Source of the DNA: a virus
Virus record (IMG/VR): IMGVR_UViG_3300028654_000012
Coordinates: 1 to 64,000 of that record
Strand: one strand, 5' to 3'
DNA: 64,000 nt
Positions 10,552 to 47,386 of the stretch are shown in pieces. The notes under the pieces are model-generated. The model did no database searches. It was given only the letters and a program-made list of their open reading frames with translations, and had not been told where the DNA came from. Both the position numbers and the translations under genes were made by a program. Position 1 is the first letter of the stretch; each line of letters opens with the position of its first letter.

Positions 10552-11505
10552 ATGACTAATATACATCCTATCCTACTTACGCAGACAGGTACTGCTCCTA
10601 CAACAGGGCAGGTATTGACTGCTACTTCTACTACAGCAGCTAACTGGGCCACTCCTACGGGAGGAGCTCCTAGTGGTTCTGCTGGCGGAGATTTAGCAGG
10701 GACCTACCCTAACCCGACTGTAATAGCTGTTGAATCAGCTACTACTCGTATCGTGTTAAATGGAGCCACAGCTCCTACTAACGGTCAAGTACTAACCGCT
10801 ACCTCAGGTACAGCAGCTAACTGGCAAACTCCTGTATCGAGTTATCTATCTCTATCCGGAGGTACTTTAACAGGTCCTCTATTTATAAATGGAGCAACTG
10901 CAGGTATTACTCCTTTGATTTTAGAAGGGCCTTCGGCAACGGCCCACCAACCCATTTTAGAATTCTTAGACACTACAACTAGTGCCTCTTCTTACATCGG
11001 TTTCGCGACACAAATATTGTCAGGTGCAGCTACTGATGATATGGGAATTCGTTCTGCAGCTGCTTTATCTTTCGGTACAAATGGAAGTGCTACTGTACGT
11101 ATGTATATGGATACGAGCGGTAACGTATCCATTGGATCTAGTTCTCCGGGATCTCTTCTAGATGTAGTAGGAGCTATTCGCGGTAAACAATTTACAGATA
11201 CTACTAACGCAATTGGTTCTTCAGGATCTTCTCAGACTATTAACTGGACTTCCGGAGCTATAGTTACTACTACCCTTACAGCTAACTGCAGTATAACTTT
11301 TTCAGGGGCAATTGCAGGACAGACTCTTACTATGTTCTTAACGCAAGATGGTACAGGCTCGAGAACAGTTACTTGGTCGTCATCCCCAAAGTGGCCGGGT
11401 GGAACAGCTCCAACATTAACTACAACGGCTAGCAAAACGGATATTATTACTATGTACTACGATGGTACTAATTTCTGGGGTTTCACGGGCGGGCAGAACT
11501 ACTAA
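10552..11505 (+). CDS. Fibre protein
   Basis: 317 residues: short N-terminal segment, linker LTATSTTAANWATPTGG, GGDLAGTYPNPTV signature, a second linker LTATSGTAANWQTPV, the shaft phrase YLSLSGGTLTGPLFI, and a C-terminal beta head (ITFSGAIAGQTLTMFLTQDG ... IITMYYDGTNFWGF) common at fibre ends. It has no obvious ribosome site and follows the previous stop by 3 nt. The C-terminal phrase YYDGTNFWGF resembles a single propeller blade motif of the next gene. Confidence 0.75.
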   Translation: MTNIHPILLTQTGTAPTTGQVLTATSTTAANWATPTGGAPSGSAGGDLAGTYPNPTVIAVESATTRIVLNGATAPTNGQVLTATSGTAANWQTPVSSYLSLSGGTLTGPLFINGATAGITPLILEGPSATAHQPILEFLDTTTSASSYIGFATQILSGAATDDMGIRSAAALSFGTNGSATVRMYMDTSGNVSIGSSSPGSLLDVVGAIRGKQFTDTTNAIGSSGSSQTINWTSGAIVTTTLTANCSITFSGAIAGQTLTMFLTQDGTGSRTVTWSSSPKWPGGTAPTLTTTASKTDIITMYYDGTNFWGFTGGQNY

Positions 11506-11506
11506 C

Positions 11507-29573: not shown

Positions 29574-31598
29574 ATGTCTAATCCTCCACTTGAAATAGAT
29601 CCTACCCCTATTCTACCTACTTCCTTTTTGAGTCTTACTGATAAGAGACTAGTAGGGTCGGCTGTTCCTTTTACAGAAGTTTACGAAATTAGTGCTCCGC
29701 CTCCTCTACCTGAGGCTCAGCCAAGCCCTTTCGTAGCAATGATTAGACTTAGAGAAGCTCCTCAGCAGTTGAGTACCAATTTAAATGTAAACGTACTTAT
29801 TCCAGGATTTACTGAAGTACTTTCTACTCCATCAGCAGGACAATTTTTAGTTAATTATGGTAATGGAGATATCTTTTTCAACGCTTCACAGATAGGTACT
29901 AACGCCGTCGTTTCTTATTATGGTACAGGATCTATTGTCACTGCAGCAGATATAAATAACATTACTGGCCCTTTAGTACCTTTTTATAATAAACTAGATG
30001 GCATTGTTCCGGACTTGCCTGCTCCTCAAATTTTTACTTTTCCCGGCGGCATTGCTGGATTGATGCAAAGAAATACTTTTATAGCTACTCACGGCCAGAC
30101 TGTATTTAATGCAACCTTCCCCGTTACAGCTGACTCTACTTTATTATTCTCCGATGGTCTTTTAATGACTGAAGGAGTAAGCGCAGACTACATTTTAGGT
30201 ATCTCAGGCACTTTCGGTACTTCCGTATCAGCTTCTCCAGCTACTATTGTATCAGGTGGAACGCTCACCCTTAATCTTAATGGTGATGGAGTACAGATTA
30301 TAACGTTAGGTACTGATGCTACTGGGGCGGCTATCGCAGCAGATATTCAAGCCCGAGTACGAGCCCTTACAGCACATACTGGAGGTAATCAGCCTGCTTA
30401 CAATAATTTTACTGCTACGTACGATGAAGATACGGGACTTTATACACTTACTTCAGGAACAACTGGTACAGGTAGTTCTGTAGTTATTACAGGGGCTTCT
30501 GAAGCTATAAAGTTACTTTTAGGAACCGCTCGAGGGGGTATTGAAATTTCAGGTATGGGTTCAGGAGCTATAGCTCCAGGAGCTCCTAATCTTGCCGCAG
30601 CAGCTATCTTCGCGGTATTAGGTTCCTCAACAGTTACTAACACGGGTTCTTCAGTACTCACAGGCTCCTTGGGTCTTTCTCCGGGTACATCTATTACAGG
30701 TTTTCCGCCCGGTACTTTTACAGGTTCAGAATTCATAGCTGACTCAACTTCTAGCTTAGCTCAAACAAATGCGCAAACAGCTTATGCCTTTCTAGCTAGT
30801 AGCGTTCCTACTAAGCCGGTCAATACTACTCTGAGTAGTGCTACTCTCACAGCAGGAGTTTATCCTTACAGTTCTTCAGCTTCCTTAACAGGTGTTTTGA
30901 CTTTAAATGGTTCGGCTACTGACGTTTTCATATTTCAAATTGGTAGTACTCTCACAACGGCTTCTTCGGCCTCCGTAGTTCTTACAGGAGGGGCGTTACC
31001 TCAGAACGTATTCTGGCAAGTTGGTTCGTCAGCTACTCTAGGCACTTCTACATCTTTTCAAGGAACTATTATTGCTGAGGCGAGTATTACTGCAAATGCA
31101 GGTACTACTGTTAACGGTAGATTAATCGCTTTGACCGGAGCAGTGACATTAGGTTCTACAAACGTTACGGTTCCTTCAACAGCTACTTCAGGTACTTCCG
31201 TATCAGCTTTCCCCGCCACCTCTCTTTCAGGAGGTACTATTACTATTAGTCTAAATGGCGGATCTCCTCATACTATCACTTTAGGTACCGATAATACTGG
31301 GGCGGCTATCGCAGCAGATATTCAGTCACAAGTGCGCTCTCTATTTTCTCTCAATCCTATCTATGCAGGCTTTACAGCATCTTTCAATTCTCTCACAGGA
31401 CTGTACACGCTCACTTCAGGTACAACTGGAGTAGGTAGTTCTGTAGTTATTACAGGTAGCTCAAATGCTGCCGAGATGCTATTGGGAATAGCTTATAACG
31501 GGGATGAAACTGCAGGTACTTCAGGTACTTCGCAAATTATTTTTAATGGTCCTCGAGATTTAGGGGCCATCGTTAATATTGTCAAAATTGGGGTATAA
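29574..31598 (+). CDS. Baseplate protein interrupted by a GTS-DUF3494-GTS cassette
   Basis: 674 residues. Residues 1-212 are a baseplate or adaptor protein with two strand domains. Then GTS module (215-327), DUF3494 (334-534), GTS module (540-650), and finally the last strand of the interrupted domain (SQIIFNGPRDLGAIVNIVKI). Joining residues 212 and 651 restores a standard domain like NALLVYNDGVLLTKTVDYAE in the fibre at 7220, so the 440 residues between are an insertion. The direct repeat GGTACTTC flanks the insert. Located between the J-like and tail-I-like genes; the stop overlaps the next start. Confidence 0.8.
   Translation: MSNPPLEIDPTPILPTSFLSLTDKRLVGSAVPFTEVYEISAPPPLPEAQPSPFVAMIRLREAPQQLSTNLNVNVLIPGFTEVLSTPSAGQFLVNYGNGDIFFNASQIGTNAVVSYYGTGSIVTAADINNITGPLVPFYNKLDGIVPDLPAPQIFTFPGGIAGLMQRNTFIATHGQTVFNATFPVTADSTLLFSDGLLMTEGVSADYILGISGTFGTSVSASPATIVSGGTLTLNLNGDGVQIITLGTDATGAAIAADIQARVRALTAHTGGNQPAYNNFTATYDEDTGLYTLTSGTTGTGSSVVITGASEAIKLLLGTARGGIEISGMGSGAIAPGAPNLAAAAIFAVLGSSTVTNTGSSVLTGSLGLSPGTSITGFPPGTFTGSEFIADSTSSLAQTNAQTAYAFLASSVPTKPVNTTLSSATLTAGVYPYSSSASLTGVLTLNGSATDVFIFQIGSTLTTASSASVVLTGGALPQNVFWQVGSSATLGTSTSFQGTIIAEASITANAGTTVNGRLIALTGAVTLGSTNVTVPSTATSGTSVSAFPATSLSGGTITISLNGGSPHTITLGTDNTGAAIAADIQSQVRSLFSLNPIYAGFTASFNSLTGLYTLTSGTTGVGSSVVITGSSNAAEMLLGIAYNGDETAGTSGTSQIIFNGPRDLGAIVNIVKIGV
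30216..30554 (+). repeat. GTS module copy A
   Basis: ~113 residues from GTSVSASPAT to the GGIEIS end. Core: LTLNLNGDGV, TLGTDATGAAIAADIQA, YTLTSGTTGTGSSVVITG. Left partner of the DUF3494 cassette. Confidence 0.8.
30573..31175 (+). repeat. DUF3494 domain copy 3
   Basis: Complete domain with TGFPPGTF, LTAGVYPY, VFIFQIGSTLTT, NVFWQVGSSATLG; flanked on both sides by GTS modules. Confidence 0.85.
31191..31523 (+). repeat. GTS module copy B
   Basis: Starts GTSVSAFPATS and ends near ETAGTS. Right partner of the DUF3494 cassette. Confidence 0.8.
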
Positions 31599-34500
31599 TG
31601 GCTTATTACAGGGACGGTAATTATTATGGTGACGGTAATTATTATGGGGCATCTTCAGATTCCCCTATTAATCTCAGTTACTATTATACCGATATAGATA
31701 ACGTCTTTGTGTTCTCTTGGACATTTAATAACGATCTATTTACGCCGATATTACCTACATTCGATTACGAATTGCAGCTAGATTTGGTAGACACTTTTAA
31801 TTCTCCTGCACTTTTGGACTATAAAACCACCTCTATTGTAGGTACTTCTATATCTGGATCTAATCCTGCTACTACTATTATAGGAGGCACTCTTATTATT
31901 AGTGTAGGTGGAGATGCCCCTATAACTATCACTTTAGGTACAGACCCTACGGGAGCTACCATAGCTAGCGATATTCAAGCTCAGGTGAGTGCATTCTACC
32001 CAGGCTTTACGGCGGTATATACTACGATATACACCCTTACTTCAGGAACAACTGGGGCAGATAGTTCAGTAGAGGTGGTAGGTGGTACTAATGCAGCCGC
32101 TTTAAAGCTAGGTACCGATAATGGAGGTACCGAAACTGATGGTACTCTCATTACAAGTTCTACTACTTCAGGCACTTCGGTGTCAGGAGCTTTCCCAGCT
32201 ACATCTGCGTACGCAGGGGATACTCTCACTGTTAATTTAAATAATGATGGCCCTCAAACGATTACACTTTCTACAGATGCTACAGGCTTACTTGTGGCGG
32301 CAGATATTCAAGCTAAGATACAGGCTCTCACAGCCAACATGGCTTTCAATCAAGCGGCGTATACAGGATTTACTGCGACATTCTTAGGCAATAATGATAC
32401 GGGTGTATACACTTTAACGTCTGGAACCTCGGGACTAGGTAGTTCAGTAGTAGTTACTGGACCTTCAATTGCGCCAGCAATGAATCTAGGCGTAGCTAAT
32501 GGTGGAACGGAAACTGTGGGTACCTCTATTAATTTACCAGGAATATCTTTTCAAAATGGTAATGTATATAAAGGATTTGCCGTACCGGTATATACTAGAG
32601 CTGCTAAGCCCATTACGTTTTTCGCACGCGTTAGAATTTTATTTGGCGCAACAGTTGGAAGTTGGTCGGATGTCCTTCTTGCTACTACATTAATAGATGT
32701 GACACAGCAAGAGGTAAGTAATCTGATAAGTAACTTGCCTGATCAGCATGTATATCCTTATGACGAAGCATATAAAACTGTAACTAGAACGACTTCTAAT
32801 CTTTCTACCAATTTAGGTAAGGTTTATTGGGCCTATGCGTTAGAGTTTGATGATGCCAACCTAGAAGCTCAGCTGGCTGATAATGACGCGGATATTTTTA
32901 GAGCTAGAGACTCTAGATTCTTTTCCATCTGGGGATATCCTGTTGGATTTCAGAAACCTTCCACTATGCAGTATGTGGATTATCGTAATATTATTAATGA
33001 ATTTAGGCTAGCTTCTTTCGCAGGTAGTACCGTAGAGGCTGTAAAGTTAGTAGTGAGTTCTTTCACAGGGATTGACCCCACTATTACTCCTTTCGCTCAA
33101 ATTTTAAATTTTATAACATCTAGCGAACAAACTGAGACTTATACTATTCCTAGTATAGGCCCTTACATTATCACCTTAGCTAATCTTCCTAGAAATACTC
33201 CTACCATTCCAGGCTTTCAGTATACGAATGGAGTTCCAGGTCCTGAGGAGTATTCGGACGGAACATCTGTGTCAGCTACTTTTGCTGCTACTAATCTTAC
33301 AGGTACTATTACAATCAACTTAGATGGGGATGGACCAAGGAAAATTACACTAGCAGCGAATACTACTGGTGCGGCTATCGCGGCTGACATTCAGACTAAG
33401 ATGAGAGCTCTTACTGCAGCTAATCCTGTCAATCAAATAGCTTATGATGGTTTTACCGCAGTATTCAGCGGGGGACTTTATACTCTTACATCAGGAGCTA
33501 TTGGGTTAAATAGTTCAGTAGTTGTCACAGGACTTTCAGATGCAGTTAAGTTGAAATTAGGTGTAGCTAATGGTGGAACGGAAACTCCTGGATCTACGTC
33601 TTCTGCAACCTATGCTCTTCTTGCTAGCTCTACTATTACTAACGTAGGGCCTACGTTAGTTAATGGTAATCTTGATTTATATCCAGGCTCTTCAGTAACA
33701 GGTTTTCCTCCAGGCACTGTTTCAGGAGTTCAAAATATTGCTAACACTGCCGCGCAGACTGCAAAGACGAATGCTAACAACGCTTTTATTGCGGCCAACG
33801 CGATTGGAGGTGCTACCGTACTTACAGGAGATCTAAGTACTTACAGCCCTCTAGCTCCTGGCGTTTACAAGTATACCTCTTCAGCAACGCTTACAGGTAA
33901 TTTAACTTTAAATGGGCCTCCAACTGCCACATGGGTTTTTCAAATTGGTAGTACTCTGACGACAGCTACTTCAGCTTCTGTTACCTTATCCGGAGGAGCT
34001 GTCGCTAGTAATGTACTCTTCGCGGTAGGCTCTTCAGCTACTTTAGATACCTCAACTTTATTTAACGGCAATATTATTGCTCAAGCTAGTATTTCTCTGA
34101 ATGGAAGTAATACTGTCAATGGACAACTAGCAGCTCTTTCAGGGGCTATCACCATCGCAGGGGCAAGTACTATCTCAGCAGGCTCTATTTCCTCAGCGGG
34201 AACTTCAGTATCAAATACATCTCCCGCTACTAATCTTACAGGTACTGTAACAATTAACCTTAATGGAGATGGACCCCGAACTCTTACTTTAGGATCGGAT
34301 GCTACTGGAGCAGCTATTGCTGCAGATATTCAGACACAGATTCGTGCGCTTACAGCGATCAGCCTTCCTAATCAGCTGGCGTATGATGATTTTACAGCTA
34401 CATTTAGTAGTCTTAATAATCAGTATACTCTCACTTCAGGACTTTCAGGAGCGAGTAGTTCTGTCGTAGTTACAGGGGCTTCTTACGCAGTAGATTTGAA

Positions 34501-35278
34501 ATTAGGCGTAGCTAATGGTGGAACGGAAACTGTGGGTATGCCTATATTAGGGTTTTTCTCAGTTAATTTTATTACAGGAGTACTTACTTTCAATGCTACT
34601 AGTGCGGGAGAAACGGTTTCTGTAACCTATCTAGATCAAGCAGATATTTACTCTGTTTTAGAATCTCCTACAGTAGAAGCTCATACTATTCCAAGTATTT
34701 TTTCTTATATTGTAACTTTGGATAATCCTCCAGCCAATTGTCCTTCTGTAGGATTAGTACTTCCTGGAACTGTACAGGTGACTCATGGCTCTGCTAGCGT
34801 CGTAGGTACAGGTACTACTTTTACGACTAGCTTTAGTGTAGGATCTAAATTTGTTACTATAGTTGCGGGTAACGTTAGTACTACTTACACTGTCGAGTCT
34901 ATAACAGATAATTTTCATTTAGCAATTAGTTCAACATATGAAGAGTCTAATGCGGCTACTGCGGCTTATAGTAATTTAGTGGAAGCATTTACATTTACTA
35001 ACAACAATACTCCCGGGCCTAATCAGTTCTCAGTTGATTTTATCGCGGGAGAGCTTATTTTTAATGCTGCAAATGCCGGAGCAGCTATTGTTGTTACTTA
35101 TTTACCTCTCAACCAAGTCCCTCCTCCTCCAGTCGTTTACAATAGATTGGCAGTAGGGGCGAGTGTAATTATTACAGTAAATAATCCAGCAGATTTCGTT
35201 TTAAATACGTCTAACATTGAATTTTTATTAGATCAGATAATTCCCGCACATGTAGAGTACATCCTGGTGGTTAACTAA
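31598..35278 (+). CDS. Giant baseplate protein (tail protein I-like) with four GTS modules and one DUF3494 domain
   Basis: 1226 residues. The core at ~370-490 (DQHVYPYDEAYKTVTRTTSN, YWAYALEFDDANLEAQLADN, FQKPSTMQYVDYRNIINEF) resembles tail protein I / wedge proteins that link baseplate to fibres. An FN3-like domain (~20-80 plus 311-360) is split by tandem GTS modules (82-184, 192-310). A strand domain is split after PGPEEYSD by GTS (555-666), DUF3494 (670-864), GTS (868-980), resuming at FFSVNFITGVLTFNATSAGE. An intact version of that domain is present at 1138-1170 (PGPNQFSVDFIAGELIFNAA). The N-terminus has a YYRDGNYYGDGNYYG repeat. Confidence 0.8.
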   Translation: MAYYRDGNYYGDGNYYGASSDSPINLSYYYTDIDNVFVFSWTFNNDLFTPILPTFDYELQLDLVDTFNSPALLDYKTTSIVGTSISGSNPATTIIGGTLIISVGGDAPITITLGTDPTGATIASDIQAQVSAFYPGFTAVYTTIYTLTSGTTGADSSVEVVGGTNAAALKLGTDNGGTETDGTLITSSTTSGTSVSGAFPATSAYAGDTLTVNLNNDGPQTITLSTDATGLLVAADIQAKIQALTANMAFNQAAYTGFTATFLGNNDTGVYTLTSGTSGLGSSVVVTGPSIAPAMNLGVANGGTETVGTSINLPGISFQNGNVYKGFAVPVYTRAAKPITFFARVRILFGATVGSWSDVLLATTLIDVTQQEVSNLISNLPDQHVYPYDEAYKTVTRTTSNLSTNLGKVYWAYALEFDDANLEAQLADNDADIFRARDSRFFSIWGYPVGFQKPSTMQYVDYRNIINEFRLASFAGSTVEAVKLVVSSFTGIDPTITPFAQILNFITSSEQTETYTIPSIGPYIITLANLPRNTPTIPGFQYTNGVPGPEEYSDGTSVSATFAATNLTGTITINLDGDGPRKITLAANTTGAAIAADIQTKMRALTAANPVNQIAYDGFTAVFSGGLYTLTSGAIGLNSSVVVTGLSDAVKLKLGVANGGTETPGSTSSATYALLASSTITNVGPTLVNGNLDLYPGSSVTGFPPGTVSGVQNIANTAAQTAKTNANNAFIAANAIGGATVLTGDLSTYSPLAPGVYKYTSSATLTGNLTLNGPPTATWVFQIGSTLTTATSASVTLSGGAVASNVLFAVGSSATLDTSTLFNGNIIAQASISLNGSNTVNGQLAALSGAITIAGASTISAGSISSAGTSVSNTSPATNLTGTVTINLNGDGPRTLTLGSDATGAAIAADIQTQIRALTAISLPNQLAYDDFTATFSSLNNQYTLTSGLSGASSSVVVTGASYAVDLKLGVANGGTETVGMPILGFFSVNFITGVLTFNATSAGETVSVTYLDQADIYSVLESPTVEAHTIPSIFSYIVTLDNPPANCPSVGLVLPGTVQVTHGSASVVGTGTTFTTSFSVGSKFVTIVAGNVSTTYTVESITDNFHLAISSTYEESNAATAAYSNLVEAFTFTNNNTPGPNQFSVDFIAGELIFNAANAGAAIVVTYLPLNQVPPPPVVYNRLAVGASVIITVNNPADFVLNTSNIEFLLDQIIPAHVEYILVVN
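31841..32149 (+). repeat. GTS module copy C
   Basis: Most diverged copy (GTSISGSNPATT ... DNGGTETDGT). The 11-mer GGTACTTCTAT at its left edge recurs with one change (GGTACCTCTAT) at 32519-32529, right of copy D. Confidence 0.75.
32171..32527 (+). repeat. GTS module copy D
   Basis: Tandem with copy C. GTSVSGAFPATS, TDATGLLVAADIQAKIQAL, ending ANGGTETVGTS. Its VAADIQAK version matches copy G (37954-38289). Confidence 0.8.
33260..33595 (+). repeat. GTS module copy E
   Basis: Left partner of DUF3494 copy 4; GTSVSATFAATNLTGTITIN to ANGGTETPGS. Confidence 0.8.
33605..34189 (+). repeat. DUF3494 domain copy 4
   Basis: Complete domain closest to copy 1 (3795-4361); TGFPPGTV, SPLAPGVYKY, GGAVASNVLFAVGSSATLD. 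Confidence 0.85.
34199..34537 (+). repeat. GTS module copy F
   Basis: Right partner of DUF3494 copy 4; GTSVSNTSPATNLTGTVTIN to ANGGTETVG. Nearly the same as copy E in its first 40 residues. Confidence 0.8.
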
Positions 35279-35280
35279 TT

Positions 35281-37260
35281 ATGGAACAAGAACTTTTTCA
35301 AAACGGCCAGCCAATCCTAACAAACGACCTTAACAATGCTCAGGCAGACTTAGAAGATGCCTTAGTTAAAAGGTTCACAGACTCCTTCTCTTCAGGTATC
35401 TTGCAGAATGCTCTAAATCAATTTGCAATTACCGTGAATGTAGGTAATCATAATCTTATAGATATCGCCACTGGCGTAGGTTATGACCCTAAAGGTCAAC
35501 GAGTATCTATCACTTCAGCTACGGATCTGTATGCAGCTGCTTACGTTACAGGCAGTACTCAGACTTCAGGGATTCCTTTTACTTACGGAGTTCCTAACGG
35601 CCCTTTAACTTATACGAATAATGGATTGCCTGGTCCTCAGTATACTCTTACTCCGCAAAATTCAGGGTGTCAAGGTATTCCTCTATTCGCGGGCGATTAT
35701 AATTATATATGGATTGGCTATTTACAAACAACCGATCCTAATATATTCGTTCTACAGAATTTAACTAATCTCAGGCTGTTTACATCTGCCTACGATGGCT
35801 ATCAGATTGTAGTAGTGGGATCTCCTACAGTAGTGACTAATCCTTCTACACTCAATCCAGATCAGACTAATTTTTCGTATATCTATTTAGGTTATGTAAA
35901 CAATACTGCGTACCCTACTCCTCTATCTGCAGGTAACATTAATACTAATGGACGTACTTTTTATTCATTAGAAAATGATCGCCTGCTAGCTATAGTGCCG
36001 GCTACGGATGCAGACAGAACTATAACCTATACTTACGGTCAATCGGTTAACTTACAAGATCATGTAGGGGCTCTAGGTAATGGAGTTGTAACACCTGAAA
36101 ATCCTCATGGAATGAACTTATCTGACTTATCAGGTGTAGGTACTACTGTTGCTCAGCTCTTAGAAACAGCCTTTACTTCAGGTATAGCCGGTACAGATCT
36201 TTCGTCTTTAAGCTTCAACGTAGATACTGGAGATCATCCAGGTAATCCTGCCTGGGGAGTAAATGGTTTTGAGGTCACTCCTCTTCTGTCTGACTCTACG
36301 CTGTACGTACAAGGCGTTACTATGGCTAGCACAGGAGTTCTAGGTTTCGGCGCAGAATTCTTTATGGCTAGTGCAGGCGGGACGATCTTGCCTACAGATG
36401 TTTACACTATATATGTAGACTCCGTATCTCAGTCACTAAAGATGGCCGGCGCGGCCGGTGGAGCGGGTCAATCCTACCAGGTACAAGTAAATAGTGTACT
36501 ATCTTCAGGGATCACTGTTATAACTTCTTCTCTTACGTCTCCAGACTTTCCGTTATGGTCTTTTACTTTTAATAATGGAACAGGGGCTATTTCAGGGGTA
36601 ACAGATCTAAGAATTTTTGGCAATGTAGGCTCAGCTAGCTTGGCACATAGCTCTGCTACCAATACGTTTATTATCCCTTATAACCTAAGCGTTTCAGGAT
36701 CTATTAGTACTTCTAGTACCTTTAATGCTCCTACTGTCAACGCTACTACCGTAGTAGAACAGGGAGGATTTCCATTAGTTCCTGCAGGTTCTATTAATGC
36801 TTATGGAGGTAGTACTGCTCCTGGAGGATGGTTAATTTGCAACGGGCAATCTTATCCTACATCTACTTACCCTAATCTATTTGCCGCTGTCGGATATAAT
36901 TGGGGCGGGACTGGAGCTAACTTTAACGTACCTGATCTTAGAGGCGTATTTTTACGTGGCGCCAATAATATGGGTACAGGCGATGCGACGGATAGTTTCG
37001 CGGATCCAGATGCAGCAAGTCGTGTTACACGTCTTTCAGGCGGAGAGACAGGTGATAACGTAGGTTCATTCCAGTTAGATGATGTAGTAGCCCATACCCA
37101 TGACGTTATCGGAGCAGCTTCGTCATCTCCAGCTTATGCGTCAGGGGGATCTGACTCACCAGCACATGCTTCTGTAGAAACAACCTTTACCCAGACACCT
37201 ACAGGCGGAAATGAAACGCGTTCTAAGAACGCCTACGTGATGTACATCATTAAATTCTAA
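35281..37260 (+). CDS. Tail fibre / short fibre with phage tail collar domain
   Basis: 659 residues. The N-terminal 120 residues attach to the baseplate (typical of the protein after tail protein I: QNGQPILTNDLNNAQADLED). The shaft is beta-rich. Residues ~500-659 are a tail collar domain (PF07484): AYGGSTAPGGWLICNGQSYP, FNVPDLRGVFLRGANNMG, VVAHTHDV, ending NAYVMYIIKF. The His-rich AHTHD motif usually binds metal in the trimeric tip. It ends the baseplate gene run. Confidence 0.85.
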   Translation: MEQELFQNGQPILTNDLNNAQADLEDALVKRFTDSFSSGILQNALNQFAITVNVGNHNLIDIATGVGYDPKGQRVSITSATDLYAAAYVTGSTQTSGIPFTYGVPNGPLTYTNNGLPGPQYTLTPQNSGCQGIPLFAGDYNYIWIGYLQTTDPNIFVLQNLTNLRLFTSAYDGYQIVVVGSPTVVTNPSTLNPDQTNFSYIYLGYVNNTAYPTPLSAGNINTNGRTFYSLENDRLLAIVPATDADRTITYTYGQSVNLQDHVGALGNGVVTPENPHGMNLSDLSGVGTTVAQLLETAFTSGIAGTDLSSLSFNVDTGDHPGNPAWGVNGFEVTPLLSDSTLYVQGVTMASTGVLGFGAEFFMASAGGTILPTDVYTIYVDSVSQSLKMAGAAGGAGQSYQVQVNSVLSSGITVITSSLTSPDFPLWSFTFNNGTGAISGVTDLRIFGNVGSASLAHSSATNTFIIPYNLSVSGSISTSSTFNAPTVNATTVVEQGGFPLVPAGSINAYGGSTAPGGWLICNGQSYPTSTYPNLFAAVGYNWGGTGANFNVPDLRGVFLRGANNMGTGDATDSFADPDAASRVTRLSGGETGDNVGSFQLDDVVAHTHDVIGAASSSPAYASGGSDSPAHASVETTFTQTPTGGNETRSKNAYVMYIIKF

Positions 37261-37272
37261 GGAGAAAAGTAT

Positions 37273-37461
37273 ATGTCAGAAATGTTTTTAGATCATATTT
37301 CAGAAGACGCCCCTGTTAGTCTGCAAGCGGGGCAAAGAATCGTAATGAAGGTAGTAAATGCAGATGGCACTGTCGCTCAAGTTGTATTTGATGATGCTGT
37401 CCCTATGGGAGAAATCTTTAGTGGAATTGTAGCTTATACAGGACATCTTGTAAGTGCGTAA
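37273..37461 (+). CDS. Small paralogous protein 1
   Basis: 62 residues, with ribosome site AAGGAGAAA. It is paralogous to the next gene: AGQRIVMKVVNADGTVAQVV versus AGQKILIQVVNADGTIATTL, followed by FDDAVP versus FNDAVP. A single beta-rich domain without signal peptide or membrane segment. Function unknown; perhaps a small fibre cap or decoration. Confidence 0.6.
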   Translation: MSEMFLDHISEDAPVSLQAGQRIVMKVVNADGTVAQVVFDDAVPMGEIFSGIVAYTGHLVSA

Positions 37462-37470
37462 GAGGTAATT

Positions 37471-37665
37471 ATGGCTAATATGAAACCCGATAGAATCGCT
37501 GAATTCGTTAATATTAATATGGTAGCTGGACAAAAAATTTTAATTCAGGTAGTAAATGCAGATGGAACAATAGCTACTACCTTGTTCAATGACGCTGTCC
37601 CTGCAGGACTTAATTTCGAAGGTAACGCATCATATTCAGGAAATTTCACAGACGTTTTCATTTAA
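37471..37665 (+). CDS. Small paralogous protein 2
   Basis: 64 residues, with ribosome site AGAGGTAAT, 9 nt after its paralogue. The conserved VVNADGT core is kept while both ends differ, suggesting an old tandem duplication. Function unknown. Confidence 0.6.
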   Translation: MANMKPDRIAEFVNINMVAGQKILIQVVNADGTIATTLFNDAVPAGLNFEGNASYSGNFTDVFI

Positions 37666-37689
37666 CAAATTTAATAACAGGAGCTTCAC

Positions 37690-38445
37690 ATGGCTTTAAT
37701 TACATATAATCAAAATGCTTCAATGACCATCAAGGGACTTATTCCTGTAGGCGGGGCGGGCATTAGCGTTTTAGCCTCTCCCGATCTTCAGGTAATCGGA
37801 GCTCCTATGGGCGACTATTTAGCTGAAACTTACCAGGTAGAACCTCTAACTACTGCGACCGCTATAGATATGGGAAAAATTGTAACTGGTAAGATAGTAT
37901 GGATTCAGTCAGATCAGCCCTTAGCTGTTACACTTTTCCAAACAACTTATTTTGGAACATCTGTTTCTGACACTGCTCCAGCTACTTCTATTGCGGGCGG
38001 AATGCTTTCTCTTAATCTTAATGGAGATGGCATGCAGACAGTAACTTTAGGAGTTGATGCTACAGGAATACTTGTGGCTGCGGATATTCAAGCTAAAGTA
38101 AGAGCGCTTACAGCGGTTAGTGCTCCTAATCAGGCTGCTTACGATAACTTCACTGCTACATATGCTAACAGTGTATATACTCTAACTTCAGGTATCGGCG
38201 GTACAAGTAGCTCTGTAGTTGTTAATAACAGCGGCATTGCTTCTTCTTTACTTCTCGGCCCTGCTAATGGTGGAACAGAAACTGTAGGTGTTTTACCTAC
38301 AGTACTTTCATTAGATAGTTTTATGATGGCTAATACTACTTTTAAGGCTCTTGAATTAGCTAATTTGTCTTCTACAACTGTAGCAAATGTGGCTATAGCG
38401 GTACTAGGTAATAGAGCCGCTCCTACAGGAACGGGTATATATTAA
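37690..38445 (+). CDS. Virion protein interrupted by a GTS module
   Basis: 251 residues with ribosome site CAGGAGC. Residues 1-86 and 201-251 together form one ~135 residue domain (VWIQSDQPLAVTLFQTT continuing into VLSLDSFMMANTTFKALELA and VANVAIAVLG). Residues 89-200 are a GTS module inserted into it. No DUF3494 accompanies this copy, so the GTS module can move alone. Likely a small surface protein of the particle. Confidence 0.7.
   Translation: MALITYNQNASMTIKGLIPVGGAGISVLASPDLQVIGAPMGDYLAETYQVEPLTTATAIDMGKIVTGKIVWIQSDQPLAVTLFQTTYFGTSVSDTAPATSIAGGMLSLNLNGDGMQTVTLGVDATGILVAADIQAKVRALTAVSAPNQAAYDNFTATYANSVYTLTSGIGGTSSSVVVNNSGIASSLLLGPANGGTETVGVLPTVLSLDSFMMANTTFKALELANLSSTTVANVAIAVLGNRAAPTGTGIY
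37954..38289 (+). repeat. GTS module copy G
   Basis: Stand-alone inserted copy; GTSVSDTAPATSIAGG, LSLNLNGDGMQTVTLG, ANGGTETVG. Confidence 0.8.
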
Positions 38446-39140: not shown

Positions 39141-42100
39141 ATGAGTATAATTCCGCAGGTAGTTATAAACTTAACCGACGAGGCTATTACTCTGTTCGAC
39201 GTCAGAGCATGGAATACTAAGCCTATCGTTCTACCTCCTTTCAACACTCAGCCTGGCGGCGTTCCTGTAGATCTTTCCCTTCTTGCTCTTGATGTAGATT
39301 TAACTAAATCTTTCCATTTGAAGCATTTATATCGCACAGGAAAGATTCACGTAAACTCTACTTTCTTAGTTAGCCAGCTTCAAGCTGGTACGATGGGAAT
39401 TGATGAAGTAGCAATAATCGGAATTCCTACTGTCGGCCAAGCCCCCATCGCCACGAGCCCGACTACTGCTGTCTGGCAGAGTCTTCCGGTAACGCTTCCT
39501 CCTTCAGGACCTGCTGGCGGAGATTTATCAGGAACCTATCCTAATCCTACTGTTGTCTCCGCAGCCGGAAATTTTACAGTAGCGGCGGGACAAATTCTTA
39601 CCCCTACTATTACTTCTTTACTAGGATCTGGAACCGCTCTTTCGATTCGAGCTAATGATGGACAAGGAGGTGCTCCTGGAGGTACTCTTTCTTTAGCTAG
39701 CGGAGCTAGTTCCGGGGGTTTGCCCGTAGGATCTGGAGCTACTATTACCCTTGCAGGAGCACTAAGTCCTGCTACAATTTCGATGGTAGCTGGAAATAAT
39801 GGTTTTGGAACTACTGGAGCATCTTTCAGTCTGGCAGGAGCGGCAGGAGGAGTAGGCGGAGATGCTACTCTTACGGGTGGAACGGGTCAAGGTAACCATG
39901 GCGGCTACATTAATCTTAATACAGGTGGAGGAAGTAGCTCAGGAGCTATCCTCTTTCAGATCGCTGGAACTGAGGCTGCTAGAGTAGATGCATCAGGTTA
40001 TTTCGGTATTGGAACTACTTTACCTTCTACGGCTCTTACTGTTCAAGGAGCCACTAATTATGGCGTAATTAAAGTTCTGAGTGCAGCTCCTGGCGGTGAA
40101 GCTAGTATTGGCTTTAGGCCAATTGATGGGACTGACGGAGGCGTTAACGATTGGGTTATTGGCTCTACAGTTAACGGTAGTGGAAATAATTTTGTTTTCT
40201 GGAATCAATCTAATAACTTAATTACAATTGATCCCTCAGGCAATATGAATCTTGCCTTTGGAGGATTAACTGCGAATAGTTTAACTACTCCTACTCTGCA
40301 AGTTAATGGCTTAGAGACGATAGTTGGCTCTGACAATGGATTTCCAGGTAACGGTTTAGTAATTGTCCCTCCTAATCACACACAGACTGCTACTTATGGG
40401 TGGGGCGGAATAACAACTTCGTCTATCTTCGTCATACAGACTGGAGGGGGGCAGAATCTTTACCTCAATCCCTCATTCGCCGGCGGCTTCGTTGGCATAG
40501 GTATTGATCCCAATGTAGGATCTCCTTTAGGTCCTTTACAGGTTCGTGCGGCGGCTGATATAAATCTTTTGGTAAATGCCGCAGCTGGAGCTCTTACCCT
40601 CTCTGCTATTAACGATGTAAATAGTGCTAATGTACCTTTTGCGATTCGAGCTTCTAGTCTATCTCTCGATAATGGTGCAATTACTACTGATGGTAGTGGT
40701 AATGCTACTTTCAGAAGTGTAGCTATCAGTACTGATGGTTCTCCCATTTTTTCAGCAGGGTATGACCTCAAAATTAGAAGCACCACCTCTCTCTTAGGGA
40801 TTCACACCGATTATACGGGAGGTATCCCCACTCTAGAATTTGGTTGTGGTGATGTAGGTACTATTGCTCGAATTACTACTAATGGATCTACGAATCCTAT
40901 TGTGCTTAGTGCGGGAGGAGTTGATAGTGTATTGTTCTCTCCTGCGGGGCAAGTTGGATTATATGGAAATAATACTTCTCTAGGCGCCCTCGATATAGGA
41001 GGTAATCTTCTCATCTCTACCGCCTCGGTTATTAATCCTGCTCCAGGTAATACCGGAAGTATAAATATCTTTGCAGGTAATACCCAAGATTCTGCGGCTG
41101 TTGCAGGTAATATAAATATAGCTGCTGGTGCTGCGAATACTAATGGCGCTTCAGGCGGTAATGTCTCCATTAGCGGAGGATATTCCGTAGGAGGAGTTGT
41201 CGGAGGGCCGAGCTTAACTCTTTATGGAGCTCAAGGCAATCCAGGTACTCAAGTATCGGGTGCAGCAGCTATTAATGGCGGAACGAATGGTCAAGGAGAT
41301 GGTGGCGCAGGCATCCTTCTAAATCCGGGGAATGGATCAATCGGGGGCGGCTCCGTAAATATAAGCGCAGGAAGTTCTGCGAGTAGGCCTGGAGGAGATA
41401 TTATACTTTCTCCGGGAGTAGGTAGCACTACAGGTCACGTTCAAATTCTAGATGGCTCCCAAGGTGTAGGCAAGGTTCTAACCTCTGATGCTTCGGGTAA
41501 TGCTTCCTGGCAAGCTTCCGCAGGATTTGCGATAGGTTCGGTAATTGCTACCTACATAACGGGAGTGCAGTCCTCAGCTTTCGCCACTTTCGATGGCGTT
41601 AATATGTGGGTTAGTGGCCAAGGAAGTTCAGGTACTCTTGCAAAGATATCTCCTGATGGAGTAAGTACTGTACTCGGAGGAATAGGTTCCTATCCTTACG
41701 GACAGGTTTTTGACGGTAAGAATATATGGGTTCTGGGAAATAATGCGGAAACCATTATCAAGGTTGAACCTAATGGTACTACAACTCCTTATCCTCTTCC
41801 AATTAATAATCCTATATTTGGAGCTTTCGATGGTACTAATATTTGGGTTACCGATGGAACTAGTAATGCTGTCGTAAAAGTAGCTCCAGACGGAACTCCT
41901 ACTGCTTATACGGGAGCGGTATCTAATCCTTACGGTATAGCCTTTGATGGTCAAAATATGTGGGTGGCTAATTCGACGGATGGATCTGTTTCTAAAATAG
42001 ATCCTAGCGGGGTCATGACCAATTATCCTATCCCAGGTGTTTCTCAGTCTTACGGTATAGCCTTCGATGGTGCTAATATGTGGGTAACAAGTCCTATAGA

Positions 42101-42638
42101 AGGGGCCGTTACCGAAGTAGCACCTGATGGATCAGTTATTGCTACTTACTTCGGAATTCCTGGAGCCATATGGATTGCTTTCGACGGCACTAACATGTGG
42201 GTGGTTAGTAATACTGTAGGAGATGTTACTCGCGTTGCTCCCGATGGATCATTTATTTCCTATCCCGGAGTTACAGGTTTCTCAAACGGTATAGCCTTTG
42301 ATGGTCAAAATATGTGGGTGGTTGGCGGTGCTGATAATACTATTAGTGAAGTTCAAGCTCTACCCCACTTTTATAGAACCAATTCTCCTTCAGACTTAAC
42401 AGGATTTGCCTTAGCTAGTTCTATAAAGGGCGCACCTTCTAGCAGTGCAACTGTAGCCGTTCCGATCTCTTCGGTTACTACTTACACCGTAACTCATAAT
42501 TTAGGATACTATCCATTAGTACAGATTCTAAATAGCTCAGGCTTCATGGTTATTCCTAATTCTCTATTCCATACAGATATGAATAACTTTACAGTAACTT
42601 TTACTCTTCCGGTAACAGGCACGATCATTTACAGGTAA
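39141..42638 (+). CDS. Giant fibre with shared anchor and seven-bladed propeller
   Basis: 1165 residues with ribosome site AGAGGATT. Residues 1-80 are the same anchor as in the DUF3494 display protein at 3522. Then GGDLSGTYPNPTV, a long beta-rich shaft with Gly-rich repeats (GGYINLNTGGGSS, NINIAAGAANTNG), the linker LTSDASGNASWQ, a propeller (~795-1075) with seven cores of the type FDGTNMWV, and a C-terminal tip domain (TYTVTHNLGYYPLVQILNSS). Propeller blades contain SKIDPSG / VAPDGS turns. It is probably a receptor-binding fibre whose propeller is the distal or subdistal head. Confidence 0.8.
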   Translation: MSIIPQVVINLTDEAITLFDVRAWNTKPIVLPPFNTQPGGVPVDLSLLALDVDLTKSFHLKHLYRTGKIHVNSTFLVSQLQAGTMGIDEVAIIGIPTVGQAPIATSPTTAVWQSLPVTLPPSGPAGGDLSGTYPNPTVVSAAGNFTVAAGQILTPTITSLLGSGTALSIRANDGQGGAPGGTLSLASGASSGGLPVGSGATITLAGALSPATISMVAGNNGFGTTGASFSLAGAAGGVGGDATLTGGTGQGNHGGYINLNTGGGSSSGAILFQIAGTEAARVDASGYFGIGTTLPSTALTVQGATNYGVIKVLSAAPGGEASIGFRPIDGTDGGVNDWVIGSTVNGSGNNFVFWNQSNNLITIDPSGNMNLAFGGLTANSLTTPTLQVNGLETIVGSDNGFPGNGLVIVPPNHTQTATYGWGGITTSSIFVIQTGGGQNLYLNPSFAGGFVGIGIDPNVGSPLGPLQVRAAADINLLVNAAAGALTLSAINDVNSANVPFAIRASSLSLDNGAITTDGSGNATFRSVAISTDGSPIFSAGYDLKIRSTTSLLGIHTDYTGGIPTLEFGCGDVGTIARITTNGSTNPIVLSAGGVDSVLFSPAGQVGLYGNNTSLGALDIGGNLLISTASVINPAPGNTGSINIFAGNTQDSAAVAGNINIAAGAANTNGASGGNVSISGGYSVGGVVGGPSLTLYGAQGNPGTQVSGAAAINGGTNGQGDGGAGILLNPGNGSIGGGSVNISAGSSASRPGGDIILSPGVGSTTGHVQILDGSQGVGKVLTSDASGNASWQASAGFAIGSVIATYITGVQSSAFATFDGVNMWVSGQGSSGTLAKISPDGVSTVLGGIGSYPYGQVFDGKNIWVLGNNAETIIKVEPNGTTTPYPLPINNPIFGAFDGTNIWVTDGTSNAVVKVAPDGTPTAYTGAVSNPYGIAFDGQNMWVANSTDGSVSKIDPSGVMTNYPIPGVSQSYGIAFDGANMWVTSPIEGAVTEVAPDGSVIATYFGIPGAIWIAFDGTNMWVVSNTVGDVTRVAPDGSFISYPGVTGFSNGIAFDGQNMWVVGGADNTISEVQALPHFYRTNSPSDLTGFALASSIKGAPSSSATVAVPISSVTTYTVTHNLGYYPLVQILNSSGFMVIPNSLFHTDMNNFTVTFTLPVTGTIIYR

Positions 42639-42642
42639 TCAA

Positions 42643-45600
42643 ATGGAAATTATAGGTAACTTAATTGTAGACGGAACGTCTCTCCTTGATGATGGGGCTA
42701 TCACTACTGATGGTGCAGGTAATATTACTGCTAACAGTATAACGGCCGCTGTAACTGGAACTTCTACTACTGCAATCAACTTGCAGGGCGGGGCAATAGG
42801 GGAGATTCCGTTTCAGACAGCTACAGATGCTACGGGATTTGACTCCCTATTTAATTGGAATGACGCTTCCCACTATTTAGGTATTGGCACTTCTACTCCT
42901 GGCTACGGTGTTGATCTTTATGGAAATGTAGGCGGAGCGGGTACTAAAGGGGTATTCCGGGCAGTAGGTGATGGAGTAAACGGTTTCTTTAGAGCTGAAG
43001 CTTACGGAGTTAGTAGTTCAGGGGCTATTACTGGCGGCTTAAGTATGAGAGGTGCCCGAGGGAGCTTCGCTGTTCCTACTGCAGTGCAGCAGAATGATAT
43101 CATAGGTTCTGTAAACTATAGAGGTCATGACGGTACCGCATTTCCAGGTAGCCCTACGGTCAGTATATTTGCAAATACCTCTGAAATATGGACTCCTACA
43201 GCTCATGGTACTAATCTTATCATGAACTGGACTCCTACAGGTACTATTACTCAGACAGGCCAGCTAGTACTAAATGGATCTTCTTCTGGAGGTGTAGTAA
43301 ACAACATAGCTCTAGGGCTAGTGCAGCCGGGATCTCCGGGGGTAAATCTTAATTTTAATCGTCCTAGTGGTAACGCTTCGCTCATTAATAATGCTGTTGG
43401 AGGGTCTTTAAGTCTCAATGCCCAAACTGCTGGGGGAATTGTAAATGTTAATGCTAACAACGGCATTAATGTTGTTACTAGTAATAATAATGTTAATCTC
43501 ACTGCAGGCAATGGTGTTTTCATCCAGTCTGGTAATGCGGGGGGAACTAGCGGATTCAACGTTAACTGTTCGGCTGCCAACGGCGGCGTTAACATTAATT
43601 CAGGAACTACCGGTCGCGTAGATATTTCCGCAGGTCTCAGTGCAGGTGGCCAAGGTATTACAATGCACTCTGGACCTGGTGGATTTACAGTTCTCGCAGT
43701 GGGAGGAGGTAACGTTAATTTACAGCCTGGAGGTGATATTAATTTGACACCTACTGGAAATGTAGGCGTTAATACTTCAGGTACATTCAATGTTAACACC
43801 GCCAATCTCAATGCCTCAAACGGAACATTAAGGGTAATTTCGACTTCTGGGCCCGCGTTCTTAGAGTTGGTAGCTCCGGGACAGCCCCAATGGAATGTAG
43901 TTGTTGATAATGGCAACGGCCATTTCTTTATCCAGAATAATAGTACGGGCGCACAGATAGTTTCCCTCGATAAGAATGCCCCTAATAATTCTATTAACGT
44001 AGATTCTGCGGGAACGGTACATTTAGCGACGGGCTTAAATGTGTCTCCATCTGCAGGCTCTGCTGTTATAGAGTTAGATGGCCATCCCGCCACGTGGCAG
44101 CTTATTTCGCAGAATGCTTCTGGTGCCTTTAGTATTAGAAGTGTTTCCGGCTCAGCTAATACGGTCAATATCGAGTCTGGCGCTCCGCAGAATTCTTTAT
44201 ACATTGGAGCTTCTGGCGTAGGTATTGATACTGCTAATGTAACAAGACAGCTCACAGTAGGAGGGTCAGGGCAAATTCTGGCGGGGACGGAATCAGCGGG
44301 ATTGTTACTTCTTCCAGGTCTTATTTTTGCAGCAGGTTCTGGAGATATTAACGTAGTTACAGACTTTGGTAGAGTTAAGCTTCAGGACTCCACTGGCGGT
44401 GCAACAGCTATGTATCTCACCGGAGGTTTGCTAGGGCTTGGTACTCAGACGCCTGGTTTCAAGCTTGATGCAGTAGGAGATATCAATACTTCTACGGTTT
44501 ATCGCGTAGGAGGCTTCCCTGTAATGGATGGTCTGGGAGCTTACGCTCTTAAAGACTCTGGGGGTACTGTAGATGTTTCTGCCGCAGCAGCTCCTAGTAC
44601 GGGGCAGGTATTAACCGCAACTGATGCTAATCATGCTACGTGGCAAACTCCTTCAGGAGGAGCTCCTCCAACAGGAACTGTATTAGGATCCTTCACTGTA
44701 TCTGACTTTACCGAAGCTCTATGTTTTGACGGTACTTATATCTGGACAGCAAATTCATTTAGTGGTCCTGGAAGCGTATGTAAGCTCTTGGCATCGACTG
44801 GAGCGCTAGTAGCTACTTATACGGTGGGAACGCGGCCGACTGGCGTGACTTATGACGGTAACAATATCTGGGTTACTAACGTAACAGATAATACTGTAAG
44901 CCAAATTGTAATCGAGAGCGGCGTAGTTCTAGGGCCTTATCCAGTTCAGACTCTTCCGTGGGAATCTACTTTTGATGGAACTTATCTCTGGGTAGTATGT
45001 GAGGGAGGATACTTACAGAAGCTAGCTGCTTCCGGAGGCTCAGTAGGATCCGTATTGCAGACTATTAGTTTACCTGGCGTTAGTCCCTTCGCTGTTTGTT
45101 TTGATGGTACAAATGTATGGGTTGCAAATTCAGGCGGGAATACTGTAACTAAAGTTCTCGCCGCGGATGGGAGTATTGTAGGAACTTATGCAGTAGGAGC
45201 TAGTAACTGCCAGCCGGGAGCTGTTCTGTTCGACGGTACCTATATTTGGACTGCTAACTACAACGATAGTACGGTAGGTAAGATTTTAGCTTCTACAGGA
45301 GCTCCTGCTAATGGCGCTCCATTTGCGACCGGCTCAGCTAATCCGTTCAAGATGACTTACGATGGTACCTATATTTGGGTGCTTAATCAGTCGGATACTC
45401 ATTGCGACCAGATTCTTGCAGAGACGGGTGAAGTCGTAGCTACTTTCCCTACTAATGCATTTACAGATGGTATTTGCTTTGCAGGTGATAGTATCTGGAT
45501 TGGTATTTACTTTGGATTTAACCAGGTAGGAAAGCTTGCAGATACTGTTCCTCCCTTCCACCCCAATATATTACCTCGCGCAGCACTTCTCTCTGCAGGC

Positions 45601-46590
45601 CTGGCTCTACCAGCAGGAGCTGCTGGAGGGGATTTATCTGGCTCGTATCCAAATCCGGCGGTAAAAGCTATTGATGGTGTTCTTATATCCGGAGTTCCTA
45701 TGGCCGGCCAAGTTCTAGTAGCTATAGATGGCACTGATGCTTCTTGGCAAGATATTGTATCCGGATCAGGTTCTGCCGGCTCCTTAACAGCGTGGACAGG
45801 ATCTTCTACCTTAGGGAATGCTTCGAGCTTTACAGTTTCAGGTAATGTAATCGCTACGGGGCAGTCGGTTGTTTACGGAGGAACTAATAACACCGTTTCA
45901 GATGCTATTAACGGGACAGGTTTAGGTATTTTTGCGGGCTATAATAATACTATCACTGGAGATATAGGTTCCGTAATTGCTGGGGGTAATAGTAATCAGA
46001 TTTTAGATGCGGGTAATCATAATAACGCAGCTAACTTCATAGGCGGAGGTACTAGTAATCTTATCGACGGAGATACGGGAGGAGGGGGAGGTCATAGTGC
46101 TATCCTCGGAGGTTACGGTAATCACATCGATGGAAACGCCGGCGGAGATGGTATAATTCTCGGGGGATCTACTAATCTCATCACGTGTGGCAATGGCGTA
46201 ATTATTAACGGTAGTAGTAATGTTGTATCAGGATTTAACTCTATTGCGGCAGGTCAGCAAGCTGTTGCGGCTAATAATTATGCATTCGTATGGGCAGACT
46301 CCACAGCATCTCCTTTTTCTTCAACGGCAGATAATCAATTCTCTATCCGCGCATCAGGCGGAATCTACTTAAAAGGCCCTGTATCTGTTGTTGATGGCAC
46401 TCAAGCTGTGGGATATGTTCTAACTTCAGATGCCTCAGGTAATGCTTCGTGGCAGGCGCCTAGTGCTCCTTCTCCGTTTCCTCTTCTAGCATCCGATCCA
46501 GGAAGCCCGACTACAGGTCAAACGTGGTTTAATACCACTGATAGCCAGTTCAAAGGTTATAACGGTACTTCTATCGTAATCTTAGGATAA
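42643..46590 (+). CDS. Giant fibre with seven-bladed propeller and YadA-like head
   Basis: 1315 residues. Short N-terminus (MEIIGNLIVDGTSLLDDGAI), Asn-rich beta shaft (NVNANNGINVVTSNNNVNLT), linker LTATDANHATWQTPSGG, propeller (~683-972) with seven cores (FDGTYIWTAN, YDGNNIWVTN, FDGTNVWVAN and others), then GGDLSGSYPNPAV, and at ~1076-1216 a left-handed roll like the YadA/Hia head (IFAGYNNTITG, VIAGGNSNQI, AILGGYGNHIDG, GFNSIAAGQQAVA). It ends in LTSDASGNASWQAPSAP and a short tip (FKGYNGTSIVILG). The mix of propeller and trimeric-adhesin head in one fibre is uncommon. Confidence 0.8.
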   Translation: MEIIGNLIVDGTSLLDDGAITTDGAGNITANSITAAVTGTSTTAINLQGGAIGEIPFQTATDATGFDSLFNWNDASHYLGIGTSTPGYGVDLYGNVGGAGTKGVFRAVGDGVNGFFRAEAYGVSSSGAITGGLSMRGARGSFAVPTAVQQNDIIGSVNYRGHDGTAFPGSPTVSIFANTSEIWTPTAHGTNLIMNWTPTGTITQTGQLVLNGSSSGGVVNNIALGLVQPGSPGVNLNFNRPSGNASLINNAVGGSLSLNAQTAGGIVNVNANNGINVVTSNNNVNLTAGNGVFIQSGNAGGTSGFNVNCSAANGGVNINSGTTGRVDISAGLSAGGQGITMHSGPGGFTVLAVGGGNVNLQPGGDINLTPTGNVGVNTSGTFNVNTANLNASNGTLRVISTSGPAFLELVAPGQPQWNVVVDNGNGHFFIQNNSTGAQIVSLDKNAPNNSINVDSAGTVHLATGLNVSPSAGSAVIELDGHPATWQLISQNASGAFSIRSVSGSANTVNIESGAPQNSLYIGASGVGIDTANVTRQLTVGGSGQILAGTESAGLLLLPGLIFAAGSGDINVVTDFGRVKLQDSTGGATAMYLTGGLLGLGTQTPGFKLDAVGDINTSTVYRVGGFPVMDGLGAYALKDSGGTVDVSAAAAPSTGQVLTATDANHATWQTPSGGAPPTGTVLGSFTVSDFTEALCFDGTYIWTANSFSGPGSVCKLLASTGALVATYTVGTRPTGVTYDGNNIWVTNVTDNTVSQIVIESGVVLGPYPVQTLPWESTFDGTYLWVVCEGGYLQKLAASGGSVGSVLQTISLPGVSPFAVCFDGTNVWVANSGGNTVTKVLAADGSIVGTYAVGASNCQPGAVLFDGTYIWTANYNDSTVGKILASTGAPANGAPFATGSANPFKMTYDGTYIWVLNQSDTHCDQILAETGEVVATFPTNAFTDGICFAGDSIWIGIYFGFNQVGKLADTVPPFHPNILPRAALLSAGLALPAGAAGGDLSGSYPNPAVKAIDGVLISGVPMAGQVLVAIDGTDASWQDIVSGSGSAGSLTAWTGSSTLGNASSFTVSGNVIATGQSVVYGGTNNTVSDAINGTGLGIFAGYNNTITGDIGSVIAGGNSNQILDAGNHNNAANFIGGGTSNLIDGDTGGGGGHSAILGGYGNHIDGNAGGDGIILGGSTNLITCGNGVIINGSSNVVSGFNSIAAGQQAVAANNYAFVWADSTASPFSSTADNQFSIRASGGIYLKGPVSVVDGTQAVGYVLTSDASGNASWQAPSAPSPFPLLASDPGSPTTGQTWFNTTDSQFKGYNGTSIVILG

Positions 46591-46593
46591 AAT

Positions 46594-47386
46594 ATGGGAA
46601 CAAAATATACGGTAGATAACAGCGGTGATTTAGCTCTCTCAGGTAACATAAGTATAGGCGGCCAATATCAGGTAGAAGGCGTTCAGCTTTCTAGTGAGGA
46701 TCTCTCCGACGGAGGTGCTCTTAATGCTTCTTCTGTAGGAGGCGTCACTTTATCAGGCACTCCTACTAGTGGACAAGTGTTGACGGCTACTAGCAGCACT
46801 ACTGCCGATTGAGAAACTCCCGCTGGTGGAGGTGGATCTCCCGGAGGCAGCTCAGGTAATATTCAATATAATAATTCAGGCTCCTTCGCAGGTAGTGGGG
46901 CAATGAATTTTGATGGCTCCAATATTTCTCTTACCGCGATAGGTACTGGCGGGGCTACTCTGGCAGGAGGTAATGGACATAATCTAGGAGTGGGAGGAAC
47001 TGTTACTATTAGTGGCGGTCCTACTAATGCAGGATCAGGAGGTTCCGTTAATATATCTGGAGGATCCTCTTTCTTCGCGGACGCGGTACCTGCAGGATCT
47101 ATCTCTCTAGTTGCAGGGAGTGCTGCTAACTTCGGGGACTGAGGGAAGTAATAGTTCTGTAGTTATATCAGCGGGAAGTCCTTCAGATATAACTCCTGCC
47201 TTAGAATTAGGTGTTGCTAATGGTGGACTGGAAACGCAAGGGCAGAGTCCTGTAAGTCCGTCTTACCCTACGACGGATGTAAATAATATTCTACTGGCTT
47301 ATCTGTTTACTCCAGGAAGCCCGTTACTGTCTAATACGACAGCTATTACTAATTCGGATATTAATAATAATGTACCTGGTAGATAA
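46594..47386 (+). pseudogene. Broken chimeric fibre gene
   Basis: It starts like the neighbouring fibres (ATG at 46594, 3 nt after the previous stop) and runs to the linker LTATSSTTAD, where the conserved Trp codon is TGA (46810-46812). The same frame then stays open to 47142 with fibre-like sequence (GNIQYNNSGSFAGSG; SGGPTNAGSGGSVNISGG). Near 47129 the homology switches, out of frame, to the end of a GTS module (LTSGTEGSNSSVVI ... LGVANGGLETQG) and a short tail to the TAA at 47386. An in-frame stop plus a frame-breaking junction indicate a decayed recombination product. A short truncated protein from 46594 could still be made. Confidence 0.75.
47129..47242 (+). repeat. GTS module relic H
   Basis: Only the last third of the module remains (TSGTEGSNSSVVI to GGLETQG), joined out of frame to fibre sequence. 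Marks a recombination junction. Confidence 0.75.

Follow-up and report, generated by a model that had tools for sequence, protein, structure and literature searches.

The subject of this study is GTS, a protein module that interrupts domains of phage tail proteins. The window analysed is a stretch of 64,000 bases, bases 1–64000 of the 116,673-base virus record IMGVR_UViG_3300028654_000012, and proteins are named here by the first base of their gene. This record holds seven full GTS modules, all in three tail genes. GTS copies are 101–117 residues long (typically about 112) with 33 invariant columns, and the six other window copies match that of the 37690 protein with E-values of 1e-17 to 3e-37 at 50–66% identity. 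The initial annotation had described modules that occur alone, in tandem and on both sides of DUF3494 domains and split continuous virion domains; all seven copies were confirmed where it had placed them. The modules and the separated parts of their host domains are:

30057–30212, + strand: first part of the split C-terminal beta-domain of the 29574 protein (aa 162–213)
30216–30551, + strand: GTS of the 29574 protein, upstream of DUF3494
30606–31169, + strand: DUF3494 (PF11999, Ice_binding) of the 29574 protein (E 1e-53)
31191–31517, + strand: GTS of the 29574 protein, downstream of DUF3494
31527–31595, + strand: second part of the same beta-domain (aa 652–674, SQIIFNGPRDLGAIVNIVKIGV)
31841–32143, + strand: GTS, site A of the 31598 protein, tandem copy 1
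32171–32521, + strand: GTS, site A of the 31598 protein, tandem copy 2
33131–33253, + strand: first half of the carrier beta-domain at site B of the 31598 protein (aa 512–552), ending near PGPEEYSD
33260–33592, + strand: GTS, site B, upstream of DUF3494
33608–34177, + strand: DUF3494 (PF11999, Ice_binding) of the 31598 protein (E 3e-41)
34199–34537, + strand: GTS, site B, downstream of DUF3494
34550–34639, + strand: second half of the site B carrier beta-domain (aa 985–1014, FFSVNFITGVLTFNATSAGE...)
34766–34972, + strand: TGT module, a third insert type (aa 1057–1125 of the 31598 protein), splitting the next carrier domain
37690–37947, + strand: N-terminal half of the split 37690 host domain (aa 1–86; orthologue profile 4–85, independent E-value 7e-27)
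37954–38289, + strand: GTS inside the 37690 protein (aa 89–200), which folds alone
38299–38442, + strand: C-terminal half of the 37690 host domain (aa 204–251; orthologue profile 88–135, independent E-value 9e-8)
47126–47242, + strand: GTS remnant, the C-terminal third, in a broken fibre-like gene; an eighth copy, truncated and out of frame

The broken fibre-like gene (46594–47386) has an in-frame TGA where a paralogue encodes Trp, and a frame change leads into the truncated GTS.

When 17 diverse GTS copies were scanned, no curated Pfam or NCBIfam cut-off was cleared; the best relevant family match was a single one to DUF3383 (PF11863; E 0.0019), and the gathering score of that family was not reached, the 34199 copy scoring 11.7 bits against a cut-off of 34.9. 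Against PDB sequences the GTS profile gave no real match, so that no solved chain resembles GTS in sequence. In the AlphaFold2 (AF2) model of the 37690 protein, built from an alignment of GTS rows only, the module forms a separate alpha/beta unit (residues ~90–200, predicted local distance difference test, pLDDT, 95–99) with a strand at each edge and helices at 126–138 and 145–152, and its ends probably lie side by side; the host part is unmodelled (pLDDT mostly <50). The nearest solved folds in Foldseek are sheath chains of phage Milano, a weak match (prob 0.85–0.97, E 7e-3 to 1e-2) with a template-modelling score lowered by the unmodelled host part, and a similarly weak match was given by the flagellar cap protein FliD (6sih, prob 0.91). 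In a library of viral models, the nearest include a Shewanella phage sheath (E 3e-4, prob 1.00) and baseplate J-like proteins. An Ig-like beta-sandwich was ruled out for GTS by the helices of the model and by the poor Foldseek scores of Ig matches (prob ≤0.6, E 0.09 or worse). GTS-like domains were also seen at aa ~50–168 of ~535-aa proteins in eight viral contigs (L016, L017, L019, L020, L022 and L024–L026), the two scanned of these having no Pfam match; in L017 the adjoining gene also encodes a GTS-like domain.

Occupied and empty sites in related phages

Scanning viral contigs with a GTS profile yielded 19 loci. More records came from backbone queries, with the 31598 protein stripped of its modules and with the core of the sheath; every phage record is of metagenomic origin. 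The relatives compared are G001 (77.8 kb), G002 (49.9 kb), G003 (59 kb), G005 (210 kb) and G007 (151 kb). The tail gene order of the window is largely kept in the first four of these and more distantly in G007, and core proteins share roughly 30–59% identity with those of the window in the first four and less in G007; contigs L043 and L044 are much nearer (mostly 70–99% in the sheath region). Because the tail module is syntenic, the orthology of the tail proteins is secured, and these metagenomic phages supply the same domains with and without the module in a matching gene order. A collection of named phages had no match to DUF3494, GTS or the 31598 backbone. Four of the five inner branches are starred in a backbone tree of eight concatenated core proteins, on which ten scored insertion sites require at least 12 gains or losses.

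The clearest case is the 37690 protein, whose split was confirmed to the residue by a host profile built solely from four uninterrupted orthologues. A single-sequence scan with its host flanks matched no viral contig, and these orthologues were recovered through synteny instead. Host residues 5–86 and 204–250 correspond to the abutting profile positions 4–85 and 88–135, and with the module left out, a two-piece match of 99.0 bits becomes a single one of 116.6 bits; at the position of the module the four orthologues have a five-residue turn (SGSNT, AIDKD, LVASS or LVTSS).

In the 31598 protein, site A holds the two tandem GTS in the window, GTS and a hairpin in G002, G003 and G005, a carrier beta-domain in G001 and nothing in G007, where both tandem copies are absent. 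At site B, the split after PGPEEYSD proposed by the initial annotation is borne out, since 30.0 and 29.3 bits in two pieces become one match of 63.5 bits without the insert. In the window the insert in this host domain of about 65 aa is GTS–DUF3494–GTS; in G001 it is a GTS at an earlier loop and in G002 a GTS in the last hairpin turn, and G003 and G005 have the domain whole. GTS thus occupies three different loops of one host domain in three phages, and in every split case one continuous match is restored once the insert is left out. The next carrier domain (PGPNQFSVDF), which had been taken as an unsplit internal copy, proved to be itself split earlier, by the TGT module (37.8 and 6.2 bits in two pieces, 57.5 without TGT). 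In the 35281 paralogue, GTS lies inside the resident domain in G001, a GTS containing DUF3494 follows the resident domain in G002 and G003, and neither insert is present in G005.

For the split C-terminal domain of the 29574 protein, the comparison with the 7220 fibre proposed by the initial annotation is weak (34% identity over 41 aa). A better unsplit control comes from Moorella phage MTATph1, where a baseplate-adjacent protein has an uninterrupted domain to which the split one aligns across its junction.

The tail sheath has no GTS in the window and adds two features:

17096–17656, + strand: DUF3494 alone, near the N-terminus of the tail sheath (aa 73–259; sheath gene 16880–19207)
17744–17812, + strand: empty GTS site, the uninterrupted sheath hairpin NYNLGIDYTLVDGNVTWLTAP

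GTS occupies this DY..G.I.W hairpin in five phages (G001, G002, G003, G005 and L009); the window, L043 and G007 have the same hairpin closed, and sheath profile scores increase when the GTS insert is left out. DUF3494 follows LTRGA in the lineage of the window only and is absent there in the five GTS-bearing phages and in G007, so that GTS and DUF3494 are reciprocally present and absent between phages. Four phages have TGT in the sheath, and in two of them DUF3494 comes after it. The 16199 protein likewise carries TGT in four phages and lacks it in the window and G001.

Other inserted domains, nesting and copies outside phages

DUF3494 and TGT (about 68 aa) appear to behave like GTS as inserted segments, as we propose. 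Four PF11999 domains score above the curated cut-off in the window, and ten do so in three records (G000, G002 and G003), nine of these lying inside tail proteins of the sheath, baseplate or collar-fibre region. Beyond those already given, the window has one more:

3798–4364, + strand: DUF3494 in the 292-aa 3522 protein (gene 3522–4400)

In both the 29574 and the 31598 proteins, DUF3494 lies between a pair of GTS, which the initial annotation had read as one mobile cassette. In the DUF3494 tree the window copies cluster (0.946), the 29574 copy being nearest to the sheath copy (0.999) and the 31598 copy to the 3522 copy (0.709); in the GTS tree the flanking copies are not pairwise sisters. The DUF3494 centres come from different lineages, which means that the three parts were not copied together, and these two trees reject GTS–DUF3494–GTS as one travelling cassette. 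What holds of the proposal is that separate folds are inserted into continuous virion domains and are gained and lost at the level of the protein.

Modules also nest in one another, at the level of sequence. In both G002 and G003 a GTS domain encloses DUF3494 and matches the GTS profile as two complementary halves; domain D of the 31598 orthologue, which is GTS-like, has DUF3494 inside it in these two phages and none in G005. In an AF2 model of DUF3494 within GTS, DUF3494 is predicted confidently and both halves of GTS have low confidence.

When genomes were scanned, GTS turned up in FlgE, the protein of the flagellar hook, in two metagenome-assembled genomes (MAGs), and a contractile-sheath gene of a third MAG also carries it:

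L057, 5455–7083 (titled Nitrospirae), and L058, 5455–7083: GTS inside FlgE, between D1 and D2
L059, 1466–4185: contractile-sheath gene of an Acidobacteria MAG (PF04984, PF17482) carrying three or more GTS in tandem and apparently interrupted by a frameshift

Three of 41 genomes near that of L058 have GTS in FlgE, and the FlgE of G018, which lacks it, aligns through the junction as a clean empty site. The FlgE copies are nested among phage GTS in the tree and reach 64% identity to one phage copy; plasmids had no match with the FlgE type. The initial annotation mentions neither TGT nor the DUF3494 that stands on its own, in the tail sheath and in the 3522 protein, and it likewise lacks the nested modules and the GTS of flagellar hooks and of the contractile-sheath gene.

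Segments of another kind were seen in proteins 11462–13300, 39141–42638 and 42643–46590, where repeated DGxxxWV-type beta-propeller segments stand between fibre-like repeats (with PF24684 in the 39141 protein); these are possibly another inserted domain type.

Proposed movement between genes and its alternatives

We consider, with a probability of roughly 0.8, that GTS is a self-folding domain that spreads by in-frame recombination into surface turns of tail proteins, with a benefit in surface decoration or weak adhesion. The GTS coding segment would enter beta-hairpin surface turns of sheath, baseplate-region, collar-fibre and small virion proteins, moving by illegitimate or homologous recombination between module copies, with selection for insertion in loops. 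Kinship across genes is seen in the GTS tree, where the sheath copy of G001 has as its partner the collar-fibre copy of the same phage (99/98), not another sheath copy, and the site B copy of G002 groups with copies of the 35281 paralogue (96/92). A module always at the same place and diverging vertically is not what most sites display.

Several observations weigh against this spread. One clade of all sheath GTS is not firmly rejected (approximately unbiased test, p-AU 0.07), the sheath copies of G002, G003, G005 and L009 cluster (0.936) as under vertical descent, and the copies at site A and in domain D of the 31598 protein are likewise vertical in the GTS tree; mobility would therefore operate on the time scale of lineages. 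No near-identical copies were found at different sites (best 72% aa), so no very recent jump is caught. Apart from a shared Gly codon, the DNA at the module ends has no consistent signature, and the genomes are few and all metagenomic.

The vertical clusters would be expected if GTS were an ancestral accessory domain subject to differential loss, with little or no movement between genes, and most sites indeed need one change on the backbone tree, where gain and loss are indistinguishable. Nevertheless, we regard this explanation as unlikely, since it does not fit the three insertion points in one host domain among orthologues, the cross-gene sister pairs with starred support, DUF3494 at two sheath sites and within GTS, or the nesting of FlgE copies among phage copies.

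A receptor-binding or variability cassette with a dedicated mechanism (a diversity-generating retroelement, a homing element or a transposon-like unit) is much less probable. Repeated modules in tail proteins are a usual setting for systems of this kind. However, no reverse transcriptase (PF00078) was found in G000, G001, G002, G003, G005, G007 or G010, records that may be incomplete, in a search with positive controls, and a diversity-generating retroelement target was rejected on this ground. Consistent end repeats were not found either; some copies have a short GGTACT-like repeat at both edges, partly forced by the protein sequence. Because these seven records have no reverse transcriptase and the modules no clear end signature, the recombination that we propose would involve no dedicated mobility enzyme. 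Finally, a false join of unrelated fragments in assembly or sequencing, for which the metagenomic records and the broken fibre gene might speak, is scarcely credible given frames open through every full insert of the window, the sheath DUF3494 insert recurring in the independent contigs L043 and L044, the same inserts in L012 and L013 from different samples, and third-codon GC alike in modules (0.18–0.30) and hosts (0.17–0.34).

Relation to known systems and significance

Phages are documented to shuffle domains at the protein level (PMC10684548), and phage Ig-like domains are exchanged horizontally and thought to bind surfaces weakly (PMC9230969). Like those domains (Big_2, I-set and FN3), GTS is an accessory domain exchanged among unrelated virion proteins and apparently dispensable, as judged only from the empty orthologues; it differs in its alpha/beta fold with two helices, in its insertion inside other domains and in hosting nested modules. 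Sheath proteins carry added outward-facing domains, often Ig-like (PMC9230969), and this architecture, together with the adhesin-like folds, suggests that GTS is displayed on the virion surface, where it may serve as decoration or in weak adhesion, as proposed for phage Ig-like domains. In Milano gp20, the external sheath extension domain spans residues 91–203 (PMC10811340). The sheath GTS of L009, at aa ~93–205, has the same size and place, so far a coincidence of numbers, but the fold match is weak (E 7e-3) and GTS is found far beyond sheaths. With the insert domains of flagellar cap and hook proteins (FliD 6sih and the FlgE variable domains), GTS shares both a fold match and true copies in FlgE, although there it is a private insertion of a few genomes, placed among phage copies.

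The repeated presence and absence in the same loops and the flagellar hook copies imply that GTS behaves as a spreading clip-on surface part. It is rather likely that GTS is an uncatalogued mobile surface domain common to phage tails, a MAG contractile-sheath gene and flagellar hooks, which inserts into beta-hairpin turns and accepts other mobile domains into its own loops. By sequence, the DUF3494 domains of the window clearly belong to the PF11999 ice-binding proteins, but here they are mostly an internal segment of tail proteins and not separate genes. PF11999 genes of Arctic viruses have been interpreted as auxiliary genes for host cryoprotection (PMC11515562); our results suggest that a PF11999 match in a viral genome may be part of the tail and not an auxiliary gene against freezing of the host. 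Phages of matching gene order offer one and the same tail-protein loop with an entire additional domain and without it, a natural experiment by which the entry of accessory domains into virion proteins becomes directly testable. The findings also link phage tails and flagellar hooks by one common insert, and they point to loops in which the insertion of a whole domain is tolerated, a useful property for phage display.
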